Shown here piece by piece: positions 3,406 through 13,547 of a stretch of DNA of 64,000 bases (the stretch's first letter is position 1; each line of letters opens with the position of its first letter). A program made the translations under genes and the position numbers. The DNA is from Reichenbachiella sp. 5M10 (lineage in GTDB: Bacteria > Bacteroidota > Bacteroidia > Cytophagales > Cyclobacteriaceae). The stretch is from positions 3,352,501-3,416,500 of the forward strand of contig NZ_MDGR01000007.1 of assembly GCF_002742335.1 (NCBI RefSeq). Reading direction: 5' to 3'. Below the pieces are notes generated by a model. That model did not search any database. It had not been told where the DNA came from and saw only the letters and a program-made list of their open reading frames with translations.

Positions 3406-5190
3406 TTAGGGCTTAGCTTCCGCCTCTATCTCCAACTCCATCATATCGCTTCTAATTTCCGAAGATTCGTCCATTAGCGTAAACCGTTTCAATCCGCTCT
3501 TCAGCTCTTGAGACACGTCGTTGAGCCAATTAGACTTGAGTATATAGTTGTTCATGCCTGCAGATAGTTCGGTTGCCGAACTGGAGACCTCCTCCGTACC
3601 TGCCGCGGTTTGCTCTGCAATGACAACTACCTCTTCAGTAATATTGACAACCTTGCTGATACTCTCTGTTTGAGAGTTGGCTACATCGAGTATCATCTCA
3701 GAAAAGCCTAAGGTCTCCGTAGAAGACAATTCGATATCCTGAAAAACAGAAGCAGCTTTCCCAGAAGCCTCCACACTGGACTTCACTACGCCATTCATCG
3801 CCTCGATGACATCTGCAGCTTCCATTGTATCTCTCTGCACATCCGTCACAAGCTTCTCGATCTCACTAGCCGACTCCCGTGAGCCCTCTGCTAGTTTTCT
3901 AATCTCGTCCGCCACGACAGCAAAACCACGGCCAGCCTCTCCAGCTTGTGCCGCTTCTATCGCTGCATTGAGGGCAAGGAGATTGGTTTGAGCCGCGATA
4001 TCAGTGATCACCCCCAAGACTCTAGAGATTTCCTTGGATCTATCGGTAAGTACACGCATGGAATCAGTCGTTTTACTCGAATACACCGATATTTCGGTCA
4101 CGCGATCCACAACATACTTGGCAATCTTGGCTCCTTCTTCACTGTTTTTCACCCCCTTTTTGGCTACCTCATTGATAGACTGAGACTTCAACCCCATTTC
4201 ACTCGAGTTTTGCATCATCACCTCCACTAATGTAGAAGACTCATCGACACGAGACACCTGCGTTTGCGCCCCGTGACTCATTTGCTCTATCGCACTAGCA
4301 ATCTCCCGCGTATTCGTATTCATTTCTTCTCCAGAGATCAGCATTTCATAGGACGAATCCCCAATATCTTGGGCATTTTTAGCAATTTTCACCAAAAACA
4401 CATTCAAGTTGTCCAAAGCCTTGTTGAGGTTACTTGTCATTTGTAGGATTTGCCCCTTCGCATCGTTCTTGTAGCGCTGAGTCAAGTCACCGTCAGCCAT
4501 TGCATTCACAATTCTGTTGACTTCCAATACAGGAGTAGCGATAGATGATAGGAGCACGTTCACTGAGTTGCTCAAGTCTCTCCACACGCCCTGCTTTTCT
4601 GCCAAATCAATCTTAGCCTCTAGATTCCCTTCACCTCCGGCTTCCTGTACGGCCTGATTCGTTTCAGAAATAACATTCTTGAGTTTTTCGCGCAAGTCTA
4701 TGAGAGACAAACCCAAAACATCTTTGTCACTCAAAGCCTCGAAGGACAGGGACAAGTTCCCTCTCCCCATTTCAGACGCAAAGAGTGATGACTCTCTGAT
4801 TTTCTCCAAGTAGGTATTCAGTGACCTGAAAAAATCTCCTACATCATCTTTCCTGATCAAATCAGAGCGTTGTATATCAATGTCCAGTTCTCCCTCCTTG
4901 AGTTTCATGAACGTACCACTAATCTTTTTCATTGGTGCCTCGACACTACGACTCAATACATAGAAAGCCAGAAAAATGGAAAGCAAGGCAATAGGAACAC
5001 CGTACCACAAGTGCATCAGACCAAAAAAACCAACGATGCTTGACATGATAGACACCGTATAGATAGAGAAGATAATCCCAATTACGGGTTTATAGACAAA
5101 AGATTTACGAAAAATAAAATAATTACACACTAATGCGAAGGGCACACAAAGAAATGTCACCACAGCGGTGAAAATTAAAAAAACTGTCAT
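3406..5190 (-). CDS. Methyl-accepting chemotaxis-type signal transducer
   Basis: The 594-residue protein starts with about three closely spaced membrane helices (roughly 4-24, 34-57, 60-80) with no periplasmic ligand-binding domain between them. A HAMP-like segment follows at about 80-135, a second HAMP near 212-265 ([13 protein letters not shown]), and a long coiled-coil signalling domain. The hairpin tip with [14 protein letters not shown] and [15 protein letters not shown] lies near 395-430; this tip binds CheA/CheW in known receptors. No CheW-binding pentapeptide or methylation-enzyme genes are nearby. Because Bacteroidota of this group glide rather than swim, the output may not be flagellar. 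Sensing through the membrane helices or from inside the cell is an inference from the missing sensor domain. Confidence 0.88.
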
Positions 5191-5557: not shown

Positions 5558-8500
5558 ATGCAAAAAGAAGATATTGCAATCATTGGCATAGGATGCCACA
5601 CACCAGGTAAAATCCATGGCCCAGAGCAGTTTTGGTCTAAACTCATGAACGGAGTAGATGGAATCTCCGACGTACCCAAAGACCGATGGAATCATGAAGA
5701 ATATTATGATCCAAACCCAAACAAGGCAGGTAAAATAAAAACCAAGAAAGGAGGTTTTATTGAAGGTATTGACCTTTTTGACAATGAGTTTTTCAAGATT
5801 TTTCCGAAAGAAGCAGAACGCATCGATCCACAGCAAAGGCTCCTACTCCAAACTACCTTTGAATCGATAGAGGACTCTGGAGACAAGCTAGAGAACCTTA
5901 GAGGTAGCAATGCCGCCGTATTCATGAGTGTATTTACCAATGACTACTGGGACATGCAGATAGAGCAAGATAGCAAGTATGCCATCAGTCCACATGTCGC
6001 CATGGGATCCTCTCGCACCGCTATCGCCAACCGCATCTCCTACTTCTATGACCTCAAAGGCCCTAGTGTATCCGTCGACACAGCTTGCTCAGGCGCCTTA
6101 GTCGCGGTACATCTGGCCTGTCAGAGCATATGGGACCAATCTGCATCTTGCGCGATGGCGGGTGGAGTCAACCTAATCATCAATCCAGAATCCACAATGA
6201 TGATGTCCAAAGGCAACTTTTTGAGTCCCGATGGATATTGCAAATCCTTTGACGAAAGAGCCAATGGCTATGTCAGAGGAGAAGGAGTTGGTGTCGTATA
6301 TCTCAAACCACTGTCTCAAGCACTAAAAGATGGCAACAAAATCTACGGCCTGATCAAAGCCACGGCATGCAATTCAGATGGACATACTGTCGAAGGATTG
6401 ACCGTCCCCAGTGAAAGCTCACAAACAGCCATGTTGAAAAACGCCTACCGGTTGGCAAACATTGATGTAGATAAGCTACAATACATAGAGGCGCACGGTA
6501 CAGGCACTCCTGTAGGCGACCCTCTCGAAACCAAGTCATTTTCCAACGTATTTGGTGGCCGCAGTACTGACTCACCTCTGATGATAGGCTCTGTCAAAAC
6601 AAACATCGGACACCTCGAAGGTGCCGCTGGTGTAGCTGGACTGATCAAGCTCGCACTATCCATCAAAAACAAAAAAATACCAGGCAACCTCCATTTCAAC
6701 AAAGTCAACCCAAAAATTGATTTGAAAAATTGGAAACTAAAAGTAGTAAGTGAGAACACCGACTGGCCCGAGCAAAAAGATGGCAGCCCACGCATCGGTG
6801 GTGTCAATTCCTTTGGTGCAGGGGGAACAAATGCGCACCTAGTACTAGAAGAATACATTCCCGCGCAAGAAAAAAGCTCCAAAGCAATAGAAGAAAACCT
6901 GTACTTATTTCAAACCAGTGCGGCTACCACCACTTCCCTACACAACCTGCTCAAAGCATACAAAAGCTTCTTGCTCAGCGAGCAGTATTCACTACGAGAC
7001 ATCTGCTACAATGTCGGAAAACACAGGTCGAGCCTAAAGCATCGAATCTCAATTGCTGGCAAGGACAAGACAGACATGATCGACAAGATAGACGCTTTCT
7101 TGGAAGGGAACGTGATCTCTGGTGTGTCAAGTCATGAACTCGAAACACCTGCTCACAAGATTGGATTTGTATTTACAGGCCAAGGACCACAATGGTTTGC
7201 CATGGGACAAGAACTGATCGCTACAGAGCCACTGTTCAAGAGTACAATCCAAAATATTGAAGGCTATTTCAGCCAAATATCAGGTTGGTCACTACTCGAA
7301 GAGATGAACAAGGATGAAGAAAATTCTCGTGTAAATGACACCCGAATTGCTCAACCAGCCATCATGGCCATACAAATTGCCCTAGTCGAACTTTGGAAAA
7401 AACATGGCATCCAACCAGAAGGCGTAGTAGGACACTCGATCGGAGAAGTAGCTGCTGCCTACACTGCTGGCTCCTTGACACTCGAACAAGCCGTACAGGT
7501 AATCTTTCACCGAAGCAGAGGTCAACATGCCGCTACCGGCAAAGGAAAAATGCTAGCCGTCAGCCTCACCTTATCCGCTGCTGAGGAAATCATCAAAGAT
7601 GTCAAAGACACGGTCTCTATCGGTGCAGTGAATGGACCTGAAATGTGCGTTTTGTCCGGCGATGAGGCTCCCCTATTGCAGATTTCCGAAAAACTAACCG
7701 AGCAGGACATTTTCAACAAGTTTTTGAGAGTAACCGTACCCTTCCATTCTCATCACATGGAGCCGCTTAAAGATGAATTGATTCATTCCTTGCGTCAGTT
7801 GAAACCGGCCAAGGCTTCTCTCGACTTGTACTCTACCGTCACAGGTCAAAAAGGCGATGGTCTTCATCTAGTCAGTGAATACTGGTATGACAATGTCCGT
7901 AAGCCTGTGTACTTCGCCAATGCACTGAGCAAAATGGTAGAAGACGGATATGACCTTTTCATCGAAATAGGACCACACCCCGCCCTATCTTCAGGAGCAG
8001 AGGACATCTTTGCTAGCAAAGATTCTCATGCGGTCATCTTCCCATCTATCAAGCGAAAAGAAAATGAAAAACTCCGTTTTCTACATACTCTGGGAAGTCT
8101 ATACACGCATGGCATTGCACTCGACTGGGACTGTATCTACCCTCACAGCAACCGAATCTACACTCTCCCCAAATACACTTGGGATCTCAAATCATATTGG
8201 CACGAAACAGCAAAACACAAAGCGAAACGACTAGCCAAAAAGGTTCATCCTCTCATAAGTGGATTCAACACCTCTGGTCTCAACGACACCCACTTCACCT
8301 TTGATGTATTGCTGGACAGACATACAGACCCCTATATCGATGACCATAGAGTAGATGACGCAATCATTTTCCCAGGGACGGGACATCTAGAAATAGCCAC
8401 ATCTGCTGCACAACAGGCTTTCCAAGACAACTTTGGATTTTTGGAAGACATAAATTTCGAAAGTGCACTCTTTTTGCCAGAAGAAGGAGAACTGGCAGAT

Positions 8501-11500
8501 GTAAAGATAGAAGTCTACTCGGACGAAGAGAAATACTGGATTTTGAGCAAAGACTCGAACAATCCTGATGCAGAATGGATCAAAAACTCCAATGGGAAAA
8601 TGAATGCACTTGGGGATGAGTTCGTTTCTACTCCTATGGATCTGAATGAAATCAAGCTACGTGTCAATGACAGACTGCCTGTGCAACCCATGTACTTGGA
8701 ATTGAAAAAATGTGGCCTGCAATATGGCCCAACATTCAAACTCATCAAGAACCTATGGGTGGTAGAAGATGAAATATTGGCCAAGGTACAGCTACACGAC
8801 TCATTAGTGTATGAAATGGGGCAATACAATCTGCATCCCTCTGTATTGGACGCCTGTCTCCAAAGCATGTTTGCAGCGAAACTAAGTGACGATGATGAAG
8901 AGCGAGGAATCTATTTACCTACACATATCGACCGTTACAAGTTTCACGCAAAACCAACTTCCCCAACGGTCTATAGCTATATCAAAGTCAAAGAAGCGAG
9001 CTCTGAATATCTCCGTGGTGATTTTTGGATCATGGATGAATCAGGCAGTTTGGTTGCAGAGATCCAAGGCATAGATTTCAAATATATCGAAGGCTCTCGC
9101 TCACAAGAAGGGGATGTTTCTTACACCGGGTGCTATGAATTCGAATGGACAGAAATGAAACCGCTAGAATTCACTCCTTCTCACAACACCATACTGGTGA
9201 TTAGAGAAAATGACTTAGTCATCGAACCTCTCAACAAAAAATTGTCTCAGAATAACTCCACCCTGATTCATACTACTATCAGTGACTATTCGGATCGAGA
9301 GGCTGTTCGGCAAGAGCTAAAAAAAGTCATGAAGACAAGCCCAACGCTAAACAGAGCCATCATCACACTACCGATCACGGAAAATCAGGGAGACATAGCC
9401 AACAATTCCATTGAATTGAGTTGGAAAATCCTAAACATTTTCAATGCCATCATTCAAGAAGAATTGCAATTTCCAATTTGGATTCTCAATCAAAACGCTG
9501 AAATCGTTTTAGATACCGATCAAACGATAAACCTGCACCAATCAGTCACTTATGGGCTATCGAGAGTCATGTTCAACGAGTACCCTATGGTGACTTGCAA
9601 AATCGCTGACATTTCCTCCATCGACAATACCGACGAACTTGACAACTTGGCAAACATCATCTCTTCTCCATCCAACGGAGGCCATGAGTCTGACTTTGCT
9701 TTTAGAGGAAAAAGCATCTTTGTAAAGCGACTACAGGCCGTCAAAAAAGAGCAGGTTCAAAAAGACTCATCTGTTCAATTACCAGCAACAGGCTCATATT
9801 ATCAAGCAGTCCTGCAAGAACAAGGTATGCTAGATTCAATAGCCTTTAGACAAATAGAACCTTTGCCTCTCGGTGATCAAGAAGTAGAGATAGACATCAT
9901 CGCCGCTGGTGTCACTCCTAAAGACCTACAGATCATCAATGGCTCCTTAAGTAAGGAAAGCCTCTCAGGAGGATTATGTGGATCTCATATAGGTACAGAG
10001 TGCAGTGGGATAATTGCTAATATTGGTAAAAATGTAAGCAACCTAAAGGTAGGAGATGCTGTACTCGCTTTTGCTCCAAATTGCTTTGCAGGCAAGACGG
10101 TGGCACCACAGCACACGGTAGTACCAAAACCTGAACACCTCTCACACGAAGAAGCAGCAAGCATCTCTGTAGCATACCTGACTGCATACCACAGTCTATT
10201 CAACTTAGGACAGATTGAAGCAGACGAACGTATCTTGATCCACTCCGCAACAGACGAAGTAGGATTAGCAGCCCTCGCCTTAGCCCAGCTAAAAGGCATA
10301 GAAATATTTGCGACTGCTGATACCGTACAGAAAAGAGAACGTCTCAAAAAAATGGGCATTAACCACGTCTATGACAGCAGTTCTACGACTTTCTACAGCG
10401 AGGTGATGGCTGACTCCCAAAGCGAAGGGGTAGATTTAGTTCTCAATTCACTCAATGGAAAATCTATCGTTCAGAGTATAAAATGCCTTAGACCATTTGG
10501 CAGGTTTGTGGAATTGGGTAAAACAGACATCTACAACGACATCAGTATCCACCTGAAGCGATTCGGTGAGAATTTGAGCTATTTCGCAGTAGATATCGAC
10601 AGGCTCATGGCTCAGAAACCACAGAAAGCCCAGAAACTCTTTCAAGATGTCATTCAATTGTTTGAAACCAAGTCCGTACAAGCTACAAGTACTCAGGCAC
10701 TCAAAATTACAGCAATACAAGAAGCTTTTCAACTGCTCTCAAAAGGGGAACAAACCAGTAAAATCGTCTTGTCTATGGCTGATCAAGTCGTGCATGCTCT
10801 TCCTCAAGAGACCATTCATTTCTCTCCAGACAAATCGTACATTTTGACAGGAGGAGCCAGTGGGTTTGGTATAGAAGTAGCCAAGTGGATGGCAAACAAA
10901 GGAGCCAAATATCTCGCTTTAGTCAGCAGGAGTGGTCCAAAGTCAGAGTACGATCACAGTTGGATTGATCAACTCAAAGCTAATGGCATCCATGTGATGG
11001 TTGAAAACCTAGATTTATCCAAGTTGGATGAGGTACAAGCCATGGTCCATAGAGTCGGTAATTGTGCGCCACTTGGTGGTATCATTCATGGTGCAGCTGT
11101 ACTACAGGATGCCACGATTCCGAGAATGGACAAAGCACTATTTAGTAAGGTATTCATACCTAAAGCCATGGGGGCATGGAATCTACATCTTGCGACAGAA
11201 CAAACAGACCTCGATTTCTTCCTAAATTTCTCATCTGTATCTTCCGTCGTAGGTGTACCGGGACAATCCAACTACTCCTCAGCCAACAACTTCCTAGACA
11301 AATTAGTAGACTACAGAGTAGCAAAAGGCCTGAAAGCTCAAAGCATCAACCTCGGAGTACTGGGGCAATATGCGGGAATGACCAAAGAAGGCAGTAGCAG
11401 TAGCGTAATGAATGTGCTAGAAAGTCAAGGCTGGATCCCCTTGACCTTCAAACAAGTCATGAGCAAACTTGAAAAAGTACTCTTGGAAGGAAATCGAGTA

Positions 11501-12724
11501 AGAATGGCGACCAACGTCGATTGGCTGAAATTTAGAGAATTCTTCAACCACTTAAAGAGCGACGGAAAATTCGAACATCTTCTCACCGATGCAGCACTTA
11601 AAGTTGGTTCAGCGAGCAACAAAGGCGAAGGACTAAAAGAGACATTACTAACAGCCAATGGGCAAGCCAGTCAGATCCTTTTGGTCAATCTCAAAAATGC
11701 ATTGGCAAGAATACTGGGAACTACTCCCGACAAGTTAAATGAAAACAAAGCGGTCTCTGCAATAGGTTTAGACTCCTTGATGATGAATCAATTAAGGAAC
11801 TGGATTCTTCAGAAGTTGGAGTTCAACTACCCATTGATGAAACTATCCAAAGGACCTAGCATGGTCGAAATCTCAGAACATATTCTTCACAACCTCAAGC
11901 CGGTGGAATCTGCTCACGAACTGTTGGAAGATGAATCTGGGATCACTTCGGAAGAGGATATTGAGGTAATCAACGAATGGTTCGTTCACAAAAAACATGA
12001 AGCGACTAATTTCGAACAAAAGGCTAAACTCTTCATGTTTCATTCTATGGGCGCAGGTGCATCGATGTATGATCATTTCATATACAATGCCCCAGAAGGC
12101 ACGGATGTATATGCCGTCCAACTACCCGGCCGTGAAAACAGAAAGAATGAGGATCGCTATACAGATTTTGGACAGCTAATAGATGACCTAGAAAGCGCCA
12201 TTGTTCCACTTCTTGACACACCATTCGTCATGTATGGCCACAGTTTTGGAGGAATGGTAGCTTTTGAGCTCTCTCGTCGACTCAGAAACAAATACGGCAA
12301 AGAGCCCCTTCATTTCTTTAGCTCTGCAACCATGGCTCCTCAGATGTCTGTGACCTGGAAGAACCGAGACGTACTGAAACAGTCGGCTATTTCCAGCAAT
12401 TCAGAACAGAAGCTTCTAGGTTTGATGAATTATATCGATGACATCAATTACGTAAAGAAGATTCTCCCTATACTGAGACTTGACATGGTCTTGTTGACAA
12501 CCTATGATTACCAAGTAGAGCAAAAGCTAAACTGTCCAATCACAGTATTTTCAGCAATCGAAGATGAAGTCACCCTACCAGAGGAAATGGCTCCTTGGCA
12601 AGAGCACACTGCATCTGAGTTTAGACAAGAACTCGTGCATGGTGACCACTGGTTCGTGAGTCGAAACAAAGACTTCATTCGCCATCAGATCAGCCAAGAC
12701 CTGAGCCTTTCTTTGCAAGAATAG
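5558..12724 (+). CDS. Single-module reducing type I polyketide synthase (KS-AT-DH-psiKR-ER-KR-ACP-TE)
   Basis: This 2388-residue protein should build a reduced or polyene acyl chain by iterative decarboxylative condensation. KS (1-430) has the complete triad C177 (DTACSGA), H313 (EAHGTGT) and H352 (KTNIGH). AT (about 535-835) has GHSIGE with S627 and a VPFH motif, where Phe suggests malonyl-CoA. DH (about 895-1185) has H930 in HRVDDAIIFP, an Asp replacing the usual Gly, and D1098 in HPSVLDACLQ. A structural KR half lies at about 1190-1410; no methyltransferase is seen. ER (about 1415-1730) carries ATDEVG (1564-1569) where active ERs have a GGVG loop. KR has TGGASGFG (1764-1771), S1893, Y1906, N1910 and an LQD motif. 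ACP has GLDSL with S2073. The C-terminal thioesterase has S2229 (GHSFGG), a candidate Asp at 2336 and H2364; its LPGREN motif resembles type II thioesterases. One module with all these domains implies iterative use. No tailoring genes are adjacent; the product is unknown. Confidence 0.95.
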   Translation: MQKEDIAIIGIGCHTPGKIHGPEQFWSKLMNGVDGISDVPKDRWNHEEYYDPNPNKAGKIKTKKGGFIEGIDLFDNEFFKIFPKEAERIDPQQRLLLQTTFESIEDSGDKLENLRGSNAAVFMSVFTNDYWDMQIEQDSKYAISPHVAMGSSRTAIANRISYFYDLKGPSVSVDTACSGALVAVHLACQSIWDQSASCAMAGGVNLIINPESTMMMSKGNFLSPDGYCKSFDERANGYVRGEGVGVVYLKPLSQALKDGNKIYGLIKATACNSDGHTVEGLTVPSESSQTAMLKNAYRLANIDVDKLQYIEAHGTGTPVGDPLETKSFSNVFGGRSTDSPLMIGSVKTNIGHLEGAAGVAGLIKLALSIKNKKIPGNLHFNKVNPKIDLKNWKLKVVSENTDWPEQKDGSPRIGGVNSFGAGGTNAHLVLEEYIPAQEKSSKAIEENLYLFQTSAATTTSLHNLLKAYKSFLLSEQYSLRDICYNVGKHRSSLKHRISIAGKDKTDMIDKIDAFLEGNVISGVSSHELETPAHKIGFVFTGQGPQWFAMGQELIATEPLFKSTIQNIEGYFSQISGWSLLEEMNKDEENSRVNDTRIAQPAIMAIQIALVELWKKHGIQPEGVVGHSIGEVAAAYTAGSLTLEQAVQVIFHRSRGQHAATGKGKMLAVSLTLSAAEEIIKDVKDTVSIGAVNGPEMCVLSGDEAPLLQISEKLTEQDIFNKFLRVTVPFHSHHMEPLKDELIHSLRQLKPAKASLDLYSTVTGQKGDGLHLVSEYWYDNVRKPVYFANALSKMVEDGYDLFIEIGPHPALSSGAEDIFASKDSHAVIFPSIKRKENEKLRFLHTLGSLYTHGIALDWDCIYPHSNRIYTLPKYTWDLKSYWHETAKHKAKRLAKKVHPLISGFNTSGLNDTHFTFDVLLDRHTDPYIDDHRVDDAIIFPGTGHLEIATSAAQQAFQDNFGFLEDINFESALFLPEEGELADVKIEVYSDEEKYWILSKDSNNPDAEWIKNSNGKMNALGDEFVSTPMDLNEIKLRVNDRLPVQPMYLELKKCGLQYGPTFKLIKNLWVVEDEILAKVQLHDSLVYEMGQYNLHPSVLDACLQSMFAAKLSDDDEERGIYLPTHIDRYKFHAKPTSPTVYSYIKVKEASSEYLRGDFWIMDESGSLVAEIQGIDFKYIEGSRSQEGDVSYTGCYEFEWTEMKPLEFTPSHNTILVIRENDLVIEPLNKKLSQNNSTLIHTTISDYSDREAVRQELKKVMKTSPTLNRAIITLPITENQGDIANNSIELSWKILNIFNAIIQEELQFPIWILNQNAEIVLDTDQTINLHQSVTYGLSRVMFNEYPMVTCKIADISSIDNTDELDNLANIISSPSNGGHESDFAFRGKSIFVKRLQAVKKEQVQKDSSVQLPATGSYYQAVLQEQGMLDSIAFRQIEPLPLGDQEVEIDIIAAGVTPKDLQIINGSLSKESLSGGLCGSHIGTECSGIIANIGKNVSNLKVGDAVLAFAPNCFAGKTVAPQHTVVPKPEHLSHEEAASISVAYLTAYHSLFNLGQIEADERILIHSATDEVGLAALALAQLKGIEIFATADTVQKRERLKKMGINHVYDSSSTTFYSEVMADSQSEGVDLVLNSLNGKSIVQSIKCLRPFGRFVELGKTDIYNDISIHLKRFGENLSYFAVDIDRLMAQKPQKAQKLFQDVIQLFETKSVQATSTQALKITAIQEAFQLLSKGEQTSKIVLSMADQVVHALPQETIHFSPDKSYILTGGASGFGIEVAKWMANKGAKYLALVSRSGPKSEYDHSWIDQLKANGIHVMVENLDLSKLDEVQAMVHRVGNCAPLGGIIHGAAVLQDATIPRMDKALFSKVFIPKAMGAWNLHLATEQTDLDFFLNFSSVSSVVGVPGQSNYSSANNFLDKLVDYRVAKGLKAQSINLGVLGQYAGMTKEGSSSSVMNVLESQGWIPLTFKQVMSKLEKVLLEGNRVRMATNVDWLKFREFFNHLKSDGKFEHLLTDAALKVGSASNKGEGLKETLLTANGQASQILLVNLKNALARILGTTPDKLNENKAVSAIGLDSLMMNQLRNWILQKLEFNYPLMKLSKGPSMVEISEHILHNLKPVESAHELLEDESGITSEEDIEVINEWFVHKKHEATNFEQKAKLFMFHSMGAGASMYDHFIYNAPEGTDVYAVQLPGRENRKNEDRYTDFGQLIDDLESAIVPLLDTPFVMYGHSFGGMVAFELSRRLRNKYGKEPLHFFSSATMAPQMSVTWKNRDVLKQSAISSNSEQKLLGLMNYIDDINYVKKILPILRLDMVLLTTYDYQVEQKLNCPITVFSAIEDEVTLPEEMAPWQEHTASEFRQELVHGDHWFVSRNKDFIRHQISQDLSLSLQE

Positions 12725-12771
12725 CTAGGCATCAGCTAGCGACCCTTTTAAAACCAACCCTATTTACCCTT

Positions 12772-12805
12772 GGGCTCTCTCTATTGTCTCAATAGATGAG
12801 AGCCC
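12772..12805 (+). other. Strong hairpin between the PKS and PPTase genes
   Basis: GGGCTCTC plus TCTATTG pairs with CAATAGA plus GAGAGCCC across a 3-base loop, with one bulged T: 15 base pairs in all. No T-run follows, so it is not a normal terminator. It ends 19 bases before the PPTase ATG, where it could slow ribosomes, protect the PKS mRNA end, or attenuate PPTase expression. Confidence 0.7.
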
Positions 12806-12824
12806 ATACTTACCAGCTATTTCG

Positions 12825-13547
12825 ATGATCCACCTTCACTTACCCGAAGGACTATATTCCTGCTTTTCTGACTTATCTCACTCGTCAGAGGTCCTGTTTG
12901 AAACAGAAAAAAACATAGCAACAGCCTATGAACCCAAAAGACTCATGGAGTTTTGTAGTGGGAGATACTGTGCACACCTGTCTCTCAAGAAGCTGGGAGT
13001 GGACGCTCCCATACTCAAGACAGAGGAAGGAGCCCCTCTCTGGCCCAAGGGCATCACCGGATCCATCAGTCACTCTACCCAGACAGCCGGATCTATCGTC
13101 GCATCGACTGACAGGATACAATCCATTGGTCTAGATATTGAAACCATGGGTCGAATATCTCCAGACATGTGGTCCATCCTTTTCACTCCGAATGAAATCA
13201 ACATGCTCATGCATTCTAAACCAGCAGAGATTGACTTTTTGAGTACACTACTTTTTTCGATGAAGGAATCTTTTTACAAAATGCAATTTCCAATCAGCCA
13301 ACACTTCATGGATTTTCAAGATTGTGAAGTCACCTATAGCAATGAAAAATGTCATATCCAGCCACATGTTAGTTTGAGCGCTCCTCTCAACAACCCAGCT
13401 CAATATGACATAAAATTTCTTAGGTTAGAAACAGAAATCATCACCTACATTATCCTTCACAGACCGGACTCATCATTCAGGCATGATAAACCAAAGCACC
13501 AAGTATACAATCACCCCAGGAAACCCTATCGACATGAAAGACAATAA
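12825..13547 (+). CDS. 4'-phosphopantetheinyl transferase, EntD/Sfp type
   Basis: The enzyme moves the phosphopantetheine arm of CoA onto the conserved Ser of carrier proteins, here presumably S2073 of the PKS immediately upstream. The 240-residue protein shows the EntD-like N-terminal pattern EFCSGRYCAHLSLKKLG, then GAPLWPKGITGSISHS, the Mg-binding IGLDIE, and the second catalytic motif FSMKESFYK. Starting at ATG 12825 includes the whole domain. It lies 100 bp after the PKS on the same strand, with a hairpin between, so co-transcription is likely. The last 25 codons overlap the 3' end of the opposing PspC gene, and the corresponding tail, rich in His, Arg and Pro, looks unlike a folded domain. 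It may also serve other carrier proteins in the cell. Confidence 0.93.
   Translation: MIHLHLPEGLYSCFSDLSHSSEVLFETEKNIATAYEPKRLMEFCSGRYCAHLSLKKLGVDAPILKTEEGAPLWPKGITGSISHSTQTAGSIVASTDRIQSIGLDIETMGRISPDMWSILFTPNEINMLMHSKPAEIDFLSTLLFSMKESFYKMQFPISQHFMDFQDCEVTYSNEKCHIQPHVSLSAPLNNPAQYDIKFLRLETEIITYIILHRPDSSFRHDKPKHQVYNHPRKPYRHERQ

Follow-up and report, generated by a model that had tools for sequence, protein, structure and literature searches.

The window analysed here, a stretch of 64,000 nucleotides from the genome of Reichenbachiella sp. 5M10, contains a mono-modular iterative polyketide synthase (PKS) variant whose parts are ordinary and whose combination is unusual: a single reducing module that ends in a thioesterase (TE), accompanied by its own 4'-phosphopantetheinyl transferase (PPTase) and a membrane sensor gene, and carrying an enoylreductase (ER) that, judged by its motifs, is very probably dead. 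Our favoured reading, which we hold to be probable and by no means secure, is that the locus is a stand-alone iterative PKS making a conjugated polyene fatty acid, with the working steps proposed below. Both the on/off pattern of the ER across this PKS family and the linkage of the PKS to sensor genes are apparently previously unreported.

The PKS gene lies at 5558..12724 and the PPTase gene at 12825..13547, both on the forward strand, and the two open reading frames, of 2388 and 240 residues, coincide exactly with the ends given in the original prediction. Pfam profiles and an alignment with 28 other family members yield the layout KS-AT-DH-psiKR-ER0-KR-ACP-TE. The predicted order of domains in one chain thus stands, with psiKR placed by a gap free of Pfam hits, whereas the predicted working ER is not supported, its NADPH loop and other signatures having been lost.

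The individual domains, all on the forward strand, are otherwise well preserved. The KS (5567..6865, Pfam E 3e-86) has intact DTACSG, EAHGTGT and KTNIGH motifs, its HGTGT being accompanied by DPQQR. The AT (7166..8116, E 9e-75) displays GHSIGE and PFHSHH, motif forms that would suit a malonyl-type domain. In the DH (8246..9103), found by Pfam as N and C halves, the His and Asp/Gln motifs are present; the former reads HRVDDAIIFP, with D at the place where the usual DH motif has G, and its H and P stand nine apart in every aligned row. A probable structural pseudo-KR region follows (9155..9817): residues ~1190-1420 give no Pfam hit at all, the position fits a pseudo-KR, and the region is the fastest-evolving part among those tested, with a tree length of 20.7 against 8.3 for the rest. 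Next come the ER, recognised by Pfam ADH_N and ADH_zinc_N and predicted inactive from its lost signatures in the alignment (9845..10777), a KR with TGGASGFG and the S-Y-N residues (10820..11392, E 7e-57), and the only ACP stretch detected by Pfam in this PKS, with GLDSLMM (11690..11884). The chain closes with a type-II-like thioesterase (12026..12703, E 4e-29) bearing GHSFGG and GDHWF. Among solved structures it comes closest to RifR (87 bits), followed by a medium-chain FAS thioesterase (86 bits); release of the chain by hydrolysis, as a free acid, would agree with this. Pfam finds no MT domain. The window protein has the motifs of KS, AT, DH, KR, ACP and TE, as do the 28 other aligned members wherever the reading frame covers them, with one exception in the KS, where L090 and L091 have the variant NTACSS with the Cys kept; the gaps in L052, L053 and L092 are those of broken or cut frames.

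With KS, AT, DH, KR and ACP in one chain and no partner modules, the protein is a mono-modular reducing type I PKS. It is also the sole multidomain KS gene of the 4.6-Mb genome, in which the other seven of eight KS matches fall in frames of 369-436 residues. That it lacks partner modules and carries a thioesterase leads us to infer iterative use of the module. A self-contained single enzyme that makes and releases its chain had been predicted, and the domain set, TE included, together with the lack of any other multidomain KS gene, supports this.

The gene that follows encodes, as had also been predicted, a PPTase of the Sfp/EntD type (Pfam 4PPT_N, 1e-19, and ACPS), and begins 100 bp downstream of the PKS. 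To see how far this arrangement extends, we covered the surroundings of 30 loci, 20 from the host family and 10 from outside it, and judged 28 of them, G453 and G053 having been dropped because they reach contig ends. The PPTase was beside or near the PKS in all 28, across five family codes, and the two-gene synteny is therefore conserved; one small reading frame intervenes in L051 and L053 and two in L050, and the short match in G471 (162 residues) was scored as present. PPTase-family matches number three in each of four PKS-carrying congeners and one or two in four congeners without the PKS. By these counts the PPTase of the locus is an extra copy in its genome.

The case against the window ER rests on three signatures. 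Its NADPH loop reads ATDEVG, with DEVG in place of GG(V/L)G, and the codons at positions 10253-10258 stand where relatives encode GG; VTPKD replaces LNFKD; and SS replaces the conserved SR, so that the Arg is lost. The catalytic-type Lys (K1592) is retained. It is the loss of GGVG, LNFKD and the conserved Arg that leads us to predict an inactive domain. The same features were compared across the family in an alignment and tree of 29 rows including the window, from which G471 was left out because of its broken frame. Loop, LNFKD and SR are all intact in 18 of the 29 members. In the remaining 11, loop and LNFKD have been lost together, and SR as well except in L003; the ER frame is nevertheless without stops in all 11. 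On the best tree, built without the ER columns, the ER state changes six times, a count that depends in part on branches with support of 86-93 (for example, L014 versus the window and L013), so that five changes are possible.

Evolutionary rates point in the same direction. When the end branches of the ER are compared with those of the remaining protein, the median ratio is 2.72 for the ER-minus rows (n=7) as against 0.94 for the ER-plus rows (n=16, among them L022, which lies outside the family), with p=8e-5; this test drops L052, L053, L055 and L056 and then all rows with an end branch <=0.02. The same end-branch test, which covered KS, AT, DH, pseudo-KR and KR, revealed no significant rate shift in any of these domains of the ER-minus rows. 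One ER-minus row, L021, shows no acceleration specific to the ER (ratio 1.05). A comparison of dN/dS by domain was uninformative, since the Reichenbachiella copies are saturated at synonymous sites. Taken together, these data suggest that within the family the ER was turned off on about six occasions, with the other domains retained. L022 and L055 both lie outside the family; L055 has an adjoining PPTase, and the 20 kb of L022 contain no PPTase.

The main competitor of the polyene reading holds that the enzyme is FAS-like and fully reducing and produces an envelope lipid, either saturated or methyl-branched, as MAS and Pks2 do in mycobacteria, with an ER that either works or is helped in trans. 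Mycocerosic acid synthase is indeed the best full-length match among solved structures (920 bits), the ER motifs persist in 18 of the 29 family rows, and the window ER has an open frame and its Lys. Against this stand the DE that replaces the GG of the NADPH loop, the two further lost signatures and an acceleration confined to the ER. Moreover, a tblastn search with an intact ER matched nothing but the PKS itself in the whole 64-kb window, and hence no trans-acting ER beside it, and the same was true of the available pieces of the 10 other ER-minus loci; a trans-acting ER could be encoded elsewhere in the genome. The NCBIfam cut-offs are also missed by far, with 1154 of 2400 bits for Pks2 and 752 of 2100 for Pks13. 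We therefore regard a fully reducing enzyme as unlikely. Still less likely is a PKS decaying towards a pseudogene, with the ER lost first. Such a scenario would be suited by ER decay in several lineages and by three relatives, L052 (the second copy of G201), L053 (G152) and L094 (G471), in which stops or shifts interrupt the PKS frame, but the other active sites are intact, and KS, AT, DH and KR are not significantly faster in ER-minus rows.

Returning to the conjugated polyene acid, we propose the following sequence of steps. The PPTase encoded next door would load the ACP. KS and AT would then lengthen a short starter with malonyl units, and each round would use KR and DH; with the ER dead, the double bonds would be left in place and a conjugated polyenoate would grow until the C-terminal thioesterase freed the chain by hydrolysis. 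The prediction of a conjugated polyene acid follows from the layout, which is that of the fungal synthase LpaA minus MT. In the 18 of 29 members with an intact ER, the product should be more saturated. Several points speak against the polyene reading: the window ER retains the Lys lost by LpaA, the ER frame is open in all 11 ER-minus rows, an ER might act in trans, and L021 lacks the acceleration. The free lipid might possibly act on, or be monitored by, a neighbouring membrane sensor, a role that we consider possible because the PKS usually adjoins a membrane-embedded sensor.

Such a sensor is encoded immediately upstream. The gene at 3406..5190 on the reverse strand, divergent from the PKS, specifies a methyl-accepting chemotaxis protein (MCP) with HAMP and MCP signalling domains, identified by Pfam and by the linkage of its orthologues; hydropathy gives it three TM helices, all within residues 3-79. 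The original prediction had seen no regulator beside the PKS and only housekeeping genes, a view that this receptor contradicts in part. The other near neighbours in the window encode NqrF, a HutG-like arginase-family protein, an ABC-F ATPase, uridine kinase and dihydroorotase. A membrane signalling gene adjoins the PKS-PPTase pair in 22 of the 28 judged loci: a chemoreceptor in six (the window, G001, G004, G007, G187 and G224) and a multi-TM GAF protein in 16. The other six loci (G023, G141, G078, G174, G417 and G354) have no linked sensor. Representatives were called by Pfam domains and the rest by BLAST to probes, and the MCP of G001, split over two frames, was scored as present. By hydropathy, both kinds of sensor have TM helices only at the N-terminus, two or three in intact MCPs and mostly five or six in the GAF proteins, among which one has four and one a stray seventh; on this hydropathy evidence, a large extracytoplasmic domain is not expected in either kind. 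A single-sequence structure prediction for the linked GAF protein of L003 had a mean pLDDT of 50.9 and was set aside. Between PKS and PPTase in L051 (6231-6929) and L053 (13940-14557) we noted stand-alone multi-TM reading frames that resemble the membrane part of the GAF protein only.

The type of sensor differs between lineages, and MCP and GAF genes both belong to many-copy families. For the MCP, the receptor of L001 used as a query scored 709 bits with the window receptor and 436 bits with the next paralogue of the window genome. Its orthologue lies beside the pair in all six close PKS-carrying genomes, and across two genera it is present in 6/6 genomes with the PKS versus 1/5 without (Fisher p=0.015). 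The one PKS-minus genome that has it is G002, where the receptor occupies the same chromosomal site in the absence of the PKS; G003, G005, G006 and G014 lack it. In three PKS-minus congeners, G002, G003 and G005, the site between the HutG-like and ABC-F genes holds an M19 dipeptidase in place of PKS and PPTase (G006, with the two marker genes on different contigs, was left out of this comparison). The dipeptidase genes lie at 11860-13095 in L058, 4846-6084 in L066 and 5269-6507 in L067, and tblastn detected no match to this dipeptidase in the 64-kb window.

For the GAF proteins, 13 of the 18 linked copies found at the 16 loci form one clade (support 98) together with three unlinked copies, and the other five, from G036, G017 and three in G009, sit on other branches. 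The unlinked copies in this tree all come from PKS-plus genomes, and the tree is accordingly silent on co-occurrence. A close GAF orthologue (E<=1e-120, a cut picked after viewing the list) occurs in 8 of 295 host-family genomes, and seven of these eight are among the 19 that carry the PKS (p=1e-8); the eighth, G126, has a close GAF copy and no PKS. A looser cut of 1e-95 admits 25 genomes, of which seven carry the PKS (p=3e-4).

The neighbouring sensor may hint, from gene order, that the product is a signal. In its full form this idea describes a polyketide signalling system in which the PKS would make a diffusible or membrane-dissolved lipid signal, the PPTase would activate the PKS and the adjacent receptor would read the product; repeated death of the ER would alter the saturation of the signal and so give rise to lineage dialects. 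The evidence for it is gene linkage, and we put it forward as speculation that is more probably wrong than right by a wide measure. Were it true, polyketides would join the lipid signals of Bacteroidota. That the product might instead be an acyl group anchoring a capsule or a polysaccharide, in the manner of RkpA and WcbR, whose capsule clusters are served by single PKS genes according to the available text of PMC3908369, is highly improbable, because clustering of 16 pieces and probe matches, with flanks partly annotated by Pfam, disclosed no shared polysaccharide or export gene beside the family loci, and because the terminal thioesterase should release a free acid.

The family itself is narrowly distributed. 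Among 295 host-family genomes, 51 match the PKS at E<=1e-200, many of them partially or without the TE part, and 19 have a full-length orthologue, with two in G201. In a survey of the order (390 genomes), 15 pass 1e-250, ten of which represent an orthologue outside the host family, from five other family codes; among these ten, G453 is cut by a contig end and G471 has a broken frame. A sample of the phylum (395 genomes) added one other passing match, G895, which is without the TE part. As far as these samples go, the PKS-PPTase pair is, by sequence similarity, an orthologous family of one order, Cytophagales. Within the genus Reichenbachiella the PKS occurs in four of the eight genomes compared. 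The copies of Persicobacter psychrovividus and Aureibacter tunicatorum sit on records of a plasmid collection. In a phage collection, 62 records gave weak matches, none covering 80% and none a close relative, and a viral collection contained no matching viral contig.

Several individual copies deserve mention. Beside the broken PKS of L052, L053 and L094, the PPTase and GAF genes are open reading frames, apart from the short PPTase match of G471, and the breaks may be either assembly error or decay. The PKSs of L001 and L047 are 78% identical in the TE (residues 2155-2382) and 96-98% identical in the other catalytic domains, a divergence that might possibly stem from recombination or relaxed constraint. 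L057 (G118) and L056 (G065) encode TE-less single-module PKSs of 2092-2114 residues that are 35-36% identical, and one of the two shares its genome with a member of the PKS family. The metagenome-assembled genome of L004 (PBTY01000038.1) is titled Rickettsiales, probably wrongly; the gene order of its PKS locus resembles that of Marinoscillum.

In conclusion, natural pairs of ER-plus and ER-minus enzymes make testable how an iterative PKS sets its level of reduction, and they do so in a single-gene bacterial system from culturable marine species, where the sensor next door suggests what an orphan PKS may do biologically. Known systems resemble this one in part. The layout had been likened to that of fungal highly reducing PKSs, a likeness that is not specific: animal FAS arranges its domains in this order too, pseudo-KR and TE among them, and the bit scores of the window KS point to no special closeness to fungal highly reducing PKSs, the 353 bits with LovB being not above the values of bacterial PKSs such as CurL (424), Pks16 (370) and MAS (367). 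Animal FAS scores 264-268 bits, and its six rows are the bottom six among the 60 KS matches listed, other chains having 277 and up; on the KS score alone, membership of the window PKS in animal FAS is unlikely. MAS and Pks2 share the single-module reducing design and have a working ER and methyl-branched products. The MAS match covers residues 5-1947 of the query and stops before the ACP-TE part of the window protein, and membership in this group was rejected on the Pks2 score given above. The best-scoring NCBIfam model, PKS_plus_SDR, likewise fell below its cut-off (1180 of 1740 bits). PUFA synthases carry tandem ACPs; PfaA reached 379.5 of 1010 bits, a score on which membership in the PUFA synthases was rejected, and the window PKS has one ACP stretch.

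No close characterised homologue, which would have spoken against the original prediction, emerged from the NCBIfam equivalogs, all far under their cut-offs, or from a literature search, and the stretches around the family loci contain no full modular cluster. Among the matches listed in that search, no paper reported a product, an ER pattern or a PKS-sensor link for this family. PMC10764717 deals with FAS-like PKSs of animals and does not contain the string 'Bacteroid'. Table 2 of PMC10752948 records, for three Reichenbachiella strains, antiSMASH regions of Type I PKS to which no known cluster is similar, and none for three other strains; its coordinates correspond, within 3 bases, to the copies of G004, G001 and G007 extended by 20 kb in both directions. 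As far as the available text goes, each is a table row only, without ER state, sensor linkage or product. By coordinates, the ER-minus copies include those of R. ulvae ABR2-5 and R. agarivorans BKB1-1, and the copy of R. agariperforans DSM 26134 is ER-plus. Swf, an orphan single-module KS-AT-DH-ER-KR-ACP PKS/FAS of sponge symbionts, has, in the available text of PMC3908369, HATGT and a changed DPQQR in its KS and a reductase/sulphotransferase as partner. The window enzyme differs in its HGTGT, DPQQR, TE and PPTase, and with HATGT and the changed DPQQR absent from its KS it was not assigned to Swf.

The closest counterparts are the fungal polyene synthases. According to the available text of PMC7473843, LpaA (KS-AT-DH-MT-ER0-KR-ACP-TE) is the sole enzyme needed for polyene acids in Aspergillus. 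With LpaA and the basidiomycete polyene synthase PPS1, as far as these are described there, the window enzyme shares the mono-modular KS-AT-DH-(MT)-ER0-KR-ACP-TE layout, whereas it is bacterial, lacks MT and has its own PPTase and sensor gene. Its ER, like that of LpaA, lacks catalytic or cofactor signatures, as motif loss and ER-only acceleration indicate; the window ER keeps the Lys and loses the NADPH loop, while the LpaA ER lost the Lys. The window PKS thus has neither the MT nor the replaced ER Lys of an LpaA-like enzyme and is not filed as a member of that group; by analogy, it should nonetheless work like LpaA.
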